Positions 42,599 to 44,083 of a DNA stretch of 64,000 bases are shown piece by piece. Source of the DNA: Erwinia endophytica (GTDB lineage Bacteria > Pseudomonadota > Gammaproteobacteria > Enterobacterales > Enterobacteriaceae); contig NZ_RQVV01000003.1 in NCBI RefSeq assembly GCF_009295515.1, forward strand, positions 186,001-250,000. The letters run 5' to 3'. Positions within the stretch are counted from its first letter, which is position 1. Each line of letters opens with the position of its first letter. The position numbers were made by a program, and so were the translations under genes. The notes beneath the pieces were generated by a model. The model worked only from the letters and a program-made list of their open reading frames with translations, did no database searches and was not told the origin of the DNA.

Positions 42599-42986
42599 GC
42601 TGTGCCCCGCAATTTTGTCGCGTTGGGTAAGCCCGGAGATGATGCCAGGATATGAGCAACCAACATAACCATGAGCACCAAGCCCCAGATTTCACGTACC
42701 GCCAACTTCAGGAAACCGGATTCTTTCTGTGGCAAGAGACAAGTAAGGTTGATGAGCCATTGCATTACCACAAAATTTATCCGGTCTGTGTCGCCGTAGA
42801 CGCTTTGCCATGTCTTAGCCGGTGCCGCAGCAACATGGCCATCCGTCAGCATAATCGCGCACAGACTGCGGAAGTGATGATAAGCCATTCAGGCACGCGA
42901 CGAAATGCCGGAAATCTTTTCCGGTGTTTGTCGGGTTGGACAAGCCGGAAGCGCGTTCGTATGTGAGCAACCATGACCACAAAACC
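42599..42986. other. Non-coding, decayed stretch left of dif
   Basis: No supported gene. Short open frames on both strands have no family likeness and overlap each other. The stretch contains copy A and most of copy B of an imperfect direct repeat. Confidence 0.45.
42614..42701. repeat. Imperfect direct repeat near dif, copy A
   Basis: About 80 bp, beginning TTTGTCGCGTTGG and ending TTTCACGTACCG, with the shared core ATGAGCAACCA. It matches copy B at 42927-43003 with several small gaps, by eye roughly two thirds identical. Confidence 0.5.
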
Positions 42987-43003
42987 TCAGAATCCACGTA
43001 ACG
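42927..43003. repeat. Imperfect direct repeat near dif, copy B
   Basis: About 77 bp, beginning TTTGTCGGGTTGG and ending ATCCACGTAACG with the core GTGAGCAACCA. It ends eight bases before dif. Confidence 0.5.
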
Positions 43004-43392
43004 ACACCTTGGTGCGCATAATGTATATTATGTTAAATAATCTCCATGGGTTTATTACTTCATGGTTCTCTGGTGCAGCCACAGAAATCAGCATGTTGTG
43101 AATTTTGAGATACCTCCCTTTTATTGCATTAGGGCTGTCGTACACTCCGTTTTCTCCGTAATTTTGATGAACACCACCACTGCCACTGACAGCGACAACC
43201 GTTCCACAACGGGCACGTTCATATTTCAGCAGACAGCTGAAGACCAGAAATATATCCTCATATTCTCCCTCTGGCTCCTGCCAACGAGCAACAGATTCCG
43301 GAAGTGCGGCGTAATGAAAAGTCCCTTCCTTAATCGTCAGAGTAGTTGAGTGACAGGATGGGCATGCCCAGTTTGGACAATGGTTGATTCAT
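42987..43392 (-). pseudogene. DUF4145-type zinc-ribbon gene remnant, truncated at dif
   Basis: A 134-codon stop-free frame reads NHCPNWACPSCHSTTLTIKEG, then EGEYEDIFLVFSCLLKYERARCGTVVAVSGSGGV. This is the usual start of DUF4145 proteins (WxCPxC ribbon, GTF.Y, CxxC-like, VSGxGxV), known from defence-linked and other accessory loci. The frame has no start: an in-frame TGA lies just before it. The likely ATG at 43392 (MNQP...) is one frame away and stops after 20 codons, so there is a frameshift near the start. The C-terminal two-thirds of the usual protein are missing. The frame runs through dif and ends in repeat copy B. A non-functional remnant is the best reading. Confidence 0.55.
43011..43038 (+). 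other. dif: dif site (XerCD chromosome dimer resolution)
   Basis: The 28 bp comprise an XerC arm GGTGCGCATAA, a central TGTATA and an XerD arm TTATGTTAAAT. From memory of the E. coli site, all 28 bases match. XerC and XerD resolve chromosome dimers here at division, activated by FtsK. It marks the replication terminus. KOPS octamers on the two sides point at it, and matS sites occur on both flanks. Confidence 0.95.
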
Positions 43393-43443
43393 GGCTTTTT
43401 TGTCTGCCGTACTCGCTGGAGTATCTGCTTACTGTTATTGTGG

Positions 43444-43755
43444 TCAGTCTATTATTTCTGATGGCTTTTCATTTTCGGGTGACCAGTAGCCACCGCTACC
43501 ATGGTAGGTTTCTGCGCCAAGAACGAACTGAGTCCGGCAATAGTTACATACGAAATGATAATCAACTATATCGCCCCACACCATCTTCTCAGCACATTCG
43601 TGGAAGCTATATTGATTCCAGTCCCTCGTTGATTTGATTTCAGACAACATCCCCTCACTGAGCGCATTTATGGCAATGCGAATAGCTTTCCGCAATTGCT
43701 CTGGTGACCGGATGACATATTTAACGCACAATGCCTGGCAATGCTCACAGCTCAT
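43444..43755 (-). CDS. Small protein with two cysteine pairs, unknown function
   Basis: 103 residues. A CEHC pair at the N-terminus and a CNYC pair near 71-74 could bind one zinc ion. Between them lie a helical segment (SPEQLRKAIRIAINALSEGML) and the motif FHECAEKMVWGDIVDYHFVC. The C-terminus is acidic (GSGGYWSPENEKPSEIID). I have an impression of similar small accessory-region proteins but no function. ATG 43755 follows GAGG at eight bases; a GTG at 43764 is the alternative. It lies 51 bp upstream of the DUF4145 remnant on the same strand, so the two may be parts of one former accessory unit beside dif. Confidence 0.6.
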   Translation of the reverse strand: MSCEHCQALCVKYVIRSPEQLRKAIRIAINALSEGMLSEIKSTRDWNQYSFHECAEKMVWGDIVDYHFVCNYCRTQFVLGAETYHGSGGYWSPENEKPSEIID

Positions 43756-44083
43756 TCGAGGCACCTCATGTTAATGTGTCTATAGCCAAATGTCGAAAAA
43801 CCGACAACAGCTAAATAGCTTCGCAAAATAGTAGATCACTTAAAGGGAACTCAGCCCGGATTGTGCGATCTGATCAATCGCCAAAAAGAAACAAACCACC
43901 AACCGGACTGAGCGATGCCGATCATAGCAGCTATCAAAATAGCATCAAAACAACCTCAAAAGCAGCTATTGAGGGTTGGTTCATGAAGCAAATTTCTAAC
44001 GAAACAGTTTTGACTGATAAACAATGCATTATAAAAACTATTGTCAGTGAACCAGATTAGTCCATATTGTAAACATCGTCACC
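43756..44083. other. Non-coding stretch right of dif
   Basis: 328 bp between the small cysteine-pair gene and the aldolase gene. A 65-codon plus-strand frame from 43863 starts with GTG, has no ribosome site and no family likeness, so it is not called. No terminal repeats or transposase motifs that I can support. Confidence 0.4.

Follow-up and report, generated by a model that had tools for sequence, protein, structure and literature searches.

The 28-bp site in the terminus region of the window (the whole stretch of DNA analyzed, 64,000 nucleotides) is very probably the working dif site. Its XerD side carries a left-end scar derived from a GInt-like island, whose integration would be carried out by its own recombinases. 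On the XerC side, dif is preceded by a conserved and duplicated extension. The identity of both flanks, namely the mobile-island scar and the extension, was missed by the sequence-only reading of this DNA. dif is usually viewed as a site of 28 bp, borrowed by phages and islands by way of the host XerCD recombinases, and the window dif is itself an ordinary site. As that reading had claimed, it matched the enterobacterial sequence; all 28 bases were identical to dif of E. coli K-12 MG1655 (read from NC_000913; 0 mismatches, + strand), and both sites share the layout of an 11-bp XerC arm, a 6-bp spacer, and an 11-bp XerD arm. The difference from the E. coli site lies in the surroundings, with an island scar to the right of the window dif and, to the left, a flank present in two copies, only one of which is followed by dif. 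The coordinates of the features are given in Table 1.

Table 1. Features identified around dif in the window (+ and − denote strands)
Feature	Position	Strand	Remarks
Second left-flank copy without dif	42614..42708	+	contains the extension-like stretch 42677-42708
dif-adjacent copy of the duplicated left flank (~85-95 bp)	42927..43010	+	local alignment score 67
XerC-side extension of dif, family consensus AAAACgcCAGATTtcgcCTaattctACcTT	42979..43010	+	25.1 bits, weight matrix
133-codon stop-to-stop frame spanning the element end and dif and reaching 24 bp into the extension	42987..43388	−	no Pfam match
dif	43011..43038	+	XerC arm 43011-43021, spacer 43022-43027, XerD arm 43028-43038
Left-end scar of the GInt-like dif-homing island	43039..43147	+	E 2.5e-19, 67.9 bits, +1 to +109 after dif
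First arm-type repeat TTACTTCATGG	43055-43065	+	within the left-end scar
DUF4145-domain gene fragment	43145..43388	−	3' side cut by the element end; no in-frame start codon
106-aa ORF resembling hypothetical genes of large Pantoea plasmids	43444..43764	−	no Pfam match
~120-bp sequence	43811..43929		in 1,421 plasmid records; also in Gifsy-1

The island scar on the XerD side and its relatives

The scar was recognized with a profile of 21 of 23 island left ends from other genera and from plasmids, from which the rows of the window and of genome G025 were excluded. Across the 35 dif loci of the genus (34 fetched loci plus the window; 542,164 bases), the profile matched five loci at E < 0.01, counting the window (G000, G013, G023, G010, and G025). 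All five matches were on the + strand and started 1 to 16 bp after dif, no other position was matched, and the window gave the best match (E 2.5e-19). Among 89 dif loci from elsewhere in the family, 11 matched at the same threshold, starting 4 to 36 bp after dif. The stretch from dif to position 43144 was about 90% identical to the DNA following dif in E. coli genomes with an island at this place. In a distant search, 73 of 5426 E. coli genomes gave matches, at 63 chromosomal and 11 plasmid places, mostly at 60 to 80%. The window retains the scar only: no recombinase gene of the island kind is left in it, its own ginABCD are absent, no right junction was recognized in it, and the first recombinase gene had no match at E 1e-5 anywhere in its own genome. 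Another genome, G345, carried a recombinase gene fragment at dif, yet its left-end match was weak (L306, E 0.73).

Beyond the scar, the DNA looks like cargo and plasmid debris, including the DUF4145 piece, a gene resembling those of Pantoea plasmids, and the 120-bp sequence. Positions 43443-43731 showed 76.5% identity to plasmid pEuc1 of Pantoea eucalypti, and no annotated feature lay beneath the 120-bp sequence in six listed plasmid records. Rfam (gathering scores) and ARAGORN gave nothing in the window. No gene family was generally conserved beside dif, and the commonest protein cluster occurred in 9 of the 35 genus loci (L114-L147 plus the window, at most 8 kb on each side).

An earlier claim placed dif inside an open frame that was taken to be a degraded accessory gene. 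A stop-to-stop frame does cross dif, and 43145-43388 is a fragment of a DUF4145 gene, but the rest of the frame is not a gene. The DUF4145-like portion is formed by the first 81 of the 133 codons, the remaining codons resemble no annotated gene, and a start codon appears in the minus frame 43388-42987 for the first time at 43145. In a tblastn search with 43145-43388, the best 12 of 17 matched records showed the DUF4145 annotation on plasmid genes; this likeness of the N-terminal part to plasmid genes indicates a truncated accessory gene abutting other DNA. Six of 22 protein matches of the whole frame were examined, two of which aligned with its N-terminal part (P0001 and P0002) and four with its C-terminal part (P0003, P0004, P0008, and P0022). 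A single whole gene across dif was rejected, as the frame had no Pfam match and these six matches were split between DUF4145-like and element-end-like parts. dif is not contained in a gene; in this frame, the truncated DUF4145 gene is joined to the GInt-like left end, which is followed by dif and by 24 bp of the XerC-side extension, and the continuation of the frame through dif is due to chance.

Relatives that still carry recombinase genes are mostly located at dif. Homologues of the first recombinase of the E. coli ECCHD184 island were found in 16 of 392 Enterobacteriaceae genomes (E 1e-10 or better), and in 14 of the 16, a dif site (here defined by the spacer TGTATA, an exact XerD arm, and at most two mismatches in the XerC arm) lay 52 to 178 bp before the match. 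Several of these 14 genes are fragments, including the two with the shortest distances. In G436, a recombinase fragment was found 40 kb from dif, and dif was followed by DNA that by eye resembles an island left end, while G131 had a recombinase match and no dif at two or fewer mismatches. An order-wide search of 394 genomes yielded 10 with a match at E 1e-15, seven of them outside the Enterobacteriaceae; a dif-like 11-6-11 site was present at the match in three of these seven (G585, G706, and G055) and was not found there in G488, G501, G634, and G677. Within the genus of the window, nine matches were found in 8 of 37 genomes; the strong one in G025 was alone in being at dif, and the others were weak and located elsewhere.

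The ECCHD184 island begins with two genes annotated as site-specific integrases, followed by genes for proteins of 787 and 147 aa. Homologues of ginABCD were found, all in order, in 6 of 11 stretches from family genomes (L242-L245, L247, and L248; A is partial in L243 and in two pieces in L248), and the other five lacked one or more of them. The same order occurs on plasmids in L112, where it is interrupted by an insertion sequence, and in L214, where B and C are partial. Both recombinase proteins of L002 (GinA- and GinB-like) matched PF00589, and R233, H359, R362, H363, and Y421 were invariant in the alignment of A and were read as catalytic by eye. A GinC protein would be expected to be recombinase-like and to lack the first Arg. 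An hhalign comparison of the GinC-like protein with GinB aligned the RHN...HY box weakly (Prob 0.7%, E 0.082), and no recombinase was among the PDB matches of this protein. The label "GInt-like" is used because its kinship to recombinases could not be demonstrated. The ECCHD184 cargo weakly resembles Avs1b and restriction helicases. In the cargo of the E. coli dif island (L110:26958-36403), a helicase and a large ATPase weakly similar to Avs1b may form a defence system.

The junctions of the ECCHD184 island were compared with K-12 as the empty site. The left junction reads GGTGCGCATAA TGTATA TTATGTTAAAT, so that dif is whole, and the right junction reads CCTAGTTTTTA CTCAAC ATAAGTTAAAT, followed by the K-12 right flank. 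The two copies of the XerD arm are 18,439 bp apart, first base to first base, and TTATGTTAAAT and ATAAGTTAAAT form 11-nt imperfect direct repeats with 9 of 11 bases identical in this one island, the only one with a mapped right end. At the right junction, only 3 of the 11 XerC-arm bases are present, so it has no XerC arm. The left end also directly follows TTATGTTAAAT in five of six plasmid copies (L112, L214, L215, L216, and the more distant L217; not in L213). Other XerC-like 11-bp arms or 6-bp spacers stand ahead of TTATGTTAAAT in these five, which would fit insertion of the island into plasmid XerCD sites. Separately, a recurrent XerCD-like site with the spacer TCTATC instead of TGTATA was observed in the second contigs of G324, G246, and G328, in plasmid L217, and in L255.

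We propose that the island's own tyrosine recombinases, and not host XerCD alone, would exchange strands inside the 11-bp XerD arm. The left junction would then retain the XerC arm, the spacer, and the XerD arm, so that dif remains whole, whereas the right junction would retain an imperfect XerD arm alone, so that XerCD would have no complete second site for excision of the island. In the genome of the window, the recombinase genes would later have been lost, with cargo-like debris left behind and dif kept.

The main alternative is an ordinary XerCD-dependent element (IMEX), that is, a phage or island with a dif mimic whose own recombinases were idle in insertion. Such an element would account for the complete XerD arm at the left end, and it has precedents: host XerCD gives gokushovirus and filamentous prophages access to dif (described in passages of PMC7062461 and PMC7307601), and a modified dif likewise forms the downstream end of LME-1 and of the gonococcal island (in a passage of PMC9765430). 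It is nevertheless unlikely, given the 3 of 11 XerC-arm bases at the right junction, the conserved candidate catalytic residues of the first recombinase, and the position of its gene beside dif in 14 of 16 genomes. It is less likely still, indeed improbable, that the right flank belonged to the dif region from the start, was inherited vertically, and was captured by islands from their hosts. The 7 bp immediately to the right of dif show mild conservation (mean 0.34 bits), and the XerC-side extension, which seems to be inherited with the dif region, offers a parallel. However, past +31 the right flank was unconserved (in family loci with 300 bp or more on this side), the left end was present in only 5 of the 35 genus loci, and the same end adjoins recombinase genes on plasmids. 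Insertion at dif by a recombinase-bearing GInt-like island is the reading that we prefer.

The extension and insertion sequence ends on the XerC side

The DNA preceding the XerC arm was examined in 89 family dif loci (30 plus 59 hand-picked among the matches listed). A weight matrix was trained on 83 of these loci, all outside the genus of the window, after exclusion of five loci with insertion sequence ends and of loci with less than 45 bp of left flank. Over about 31 bp before the XerC arm, these 83 loci showed a mean of 0.435 bits per position, compared with about 0.01 beyond −100. In the window, the score of 25.1 bits was the best of all positions on both strands of the 306-kb contig. For a redundancy check, 120 loci whose left flank extended over 400 bp or more were reduced to 89 clusters and, after removal of those with insertion sequence ends, to 84 loci with unrelated outer flanks, defined as having no mutual blastn match of at least 100 bp over −101 to −600. 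The extension was conserved in these 84 loci as well (0.414 versus 0.008), thereby indicating that its conservation is not mere relatedness. The K-12 extension scored 15.6 bits. The extension is absent in many loci, including most of those with insertion sequence ends and G001, G019, G025, and G027, and so it cannot be essential everywhere.

The left flank of dif is duplicated in the window. The local alignment score of 67 compares with a maximum of 42 in 2000 shuffles and of 39 among 405 other window stretches. The second copy lies 302 bp upstream, and both copies stop at the base where dif begins or would begin. The extension-like stretch of the second copy was the second-best position of the contig, with a matrix score of 19.0 that was barely over the third (18.7).

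The extension was also scored in viral contigs that bear dif. Scores for 63 of the 65 contigs, which were scorable, ranged from 26.4 to −24.2, so that many lack it. The robinz microvirus RP_37, from robin faeces, carries at L109:1713-1764 a dif mimic with 3 mismatches and an extension-like flank (11.3 bits). It matches 42985-43036 of the window, with a tblastn E value of 4.6e-6 for the VP4 reading (1.7-kb target). A microvirus prophage remnant to the left of dif was considered and rejected, as the RP_37 match consists of dif and the extension, and the six proteins otherwise all gave E values above 1. The match is read as a dif mimic with an extension-like flank and not as an insertion.

Of 123 loci, 16 (11 in the genus and 5 in the rest of the family) had ends resembling those of ISNCY/IS1202 elements at a distance of 5 bp from the XerC arm (one of the 124 loci was too short to be counted). 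In these 16 loci, two ATGTC-like repeats lie about 23 and 47 bp away from the arm and place the start of the element 5 bp from it. By offset, ATGTC occurred at 23 bp in 17 loci, at 47 bp in 14, and at the next offset in 3. Three genus loci contain fragments of an ISNCY_2 transposase (NCBIfam), which as fragments scored below the cut-off, reading away from dif. With its double ATGTC-like end 5 bp from the XerC arm, the arrangement seen here resembles the rule described for the IS1202 family in Acinetobacter in a passage of Harmer et al. 2023 (PMC10132070). It is seen in genus and family loci and not in the window, which has no ATGTC-like end, and an exact 5-bp target duplication was found in none of the 12 loci tested. 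Displaced extensions behind the insertion sequence ends were sought, and the two candidates, G011 at −506 (14.8) and G034 at −520 (13.1), were discarded because both fell within the null tail (largest 17.6).

The terminus context of dif

The position of dif agreed with the terminus of replication, to which the window had been assigned from the sequence alone. On the 306,110-bp contig, where dif is at 229011, cumulative G-C reached its maximum at C23:228134 and fell afterwards, and the best two-segment split of the skew was at 228656. The skew switch is therefore 0.9 kb from dif. A switch at dif had been anticipated, and it was found; the extreme, however, was on this strand a cumulative G-C maximum and not the predicted minimum, as seen on this one contig. 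The KOPS motif, which we take to be GGGNAGGG, was found on the same contig 20 times on the + strand to the left of dif, twice on the + strand to the right, not at all on the − strand to the left, and seven times on the − strand to the right. Its polarity switches at dif, with 27 of 29 motifs directed toward the site (binomial P = 1.6e-6). Ten exact matches to a matS-like motif were present on the 306-kb contig, and the one pattern used for the Ter core had no exact match there. The genome also encodes the machinery, as the XerC, XerD, and FtsK-gamma models all scored above their curated cut-offs.

The site had been expected to be unique, and it was the single match at three or fewer mismatches in its own assembly of 4,227,107 bases, which is in 61 contigs and is not a closed chromosome. 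When the window was shuffled 100 times with dinucleotides preserved, no match at this level arose. From the split of the assembly over 61 contigs, one might imagine that this dif is decayed or secondary and that the working one lies in unassembled DNA, but this is very improbable in view of the 28/28 identity, the skew switch within 0.9 kb, the KOPS reversal, and the assembly completeness of 99.99. The site in the window would thus be the working dif. Its host is probably Erwinia-like, since the neighbouring class II aldolase had as its two best-placed enterobacterial matches in named genomes an Enterobacteriaceae bacterium (86%) and an uncultured Erwinia (83%). Among same-genus genomes, dif was present at two or fewer mismatches in 34 of 35. 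The exception was G026 (5.0 Mb, completeness 100), in which neither the 28-mer at three or fewer mismatches nor the 19-mer core at two or fewer was found, owing to a contig break, a divergent site, or loss. Two dif copies with shared near flanks were observed in G785 (C11:831529 and C22:42779), an assembly listed as 10% contaminated.

Comparison with known elements and significance

The islands at dif were compared with GInts (Tn6571 family, Bardaji et al. 2017, PMC5385486). Common to both are a four-gene array, in which two tyrosine recombinase genes are followed by one for a longer protein and one for a small protein, together with cargo and, at the junctions of the one mapped island, 11-nt imperfect direct repeats. 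These repeats agree with the 10- to 17-nt imperfect repeats and 6-nt staggered cuts described there for GInts. The likeness is one of gene array and junctions, judged from the published description of GInts. The targets described in passages of that paper are an ABC-transporter gene and ssb, whereas the present lineage is located at dif. No dif-like motif is reported at the target of the related SE element (PMC9345347). The IMEX LME-1 and the gonococcal island insert at dif as these islands do, and LME-1 has an intact dif upstream and a modified dif downstream that lowers excision, according to a passage of PMC9765430. IMEX depend on host Xer, while the dif islands bear their own recombinases and have a right junction nearly without an XerC arm.

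In a passage of PMC10121019, GInts are named at several E. coli defence-island hotspots. The whole word "dif" is absent from the main texts of PMC5385486 (GInt), PMC10214605 (SE host range), and PMC10121019 (defence islands). Among the matches listed from one open-licence library, no statement linking GInts to dif was found, which is not proof of absence; the supplement of PMC10121019 may list this place. The same library gave no paper on an extended dif. The reading of the dif neighbourhood as the scar of a dif-located, recombinase-bearing island beside a conserved dif extension is new.

Together, the two flanks lead us to suggest, tentatively, that dif in enterobacteria acts as a composite landing pad, about 60 bp long, with two sides hunted by different elements. 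The extension of about 31 bp would travel with dif amid the turnover of the neighbouring DNA, possibly for XerC-directed loading of topoisomerase IV. The GInt-like lineage would take the XerD arm and rebuild dif, and ISNCY/IS1202-like insertion sequences would insert at a distance of 5 bp from the XerC arm. On this view, the window shows a scar of the GInt-like lineage and an intact, duplicated extension. Cleavage by topoisomerase IV at dif reportedly needs DNA adjoining the XerC box. We infer that the conserved extension may be linked to this need, and it provides a concrete sequence to set against the reported requirement for DNA on the XerC-box side.

If the proposed insertion is correct, islands that bear their own recombinases, take the XerD arm, and leave dif whole would represent a different lifestyle at the terminus. 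Their end state, with one good and one spoilt site, nonetheless resembles what has been reported for LME-1 and the gonococcal island. Given the defence-like cargo in one E. coli copy, dif is a candidate site for defence islands.
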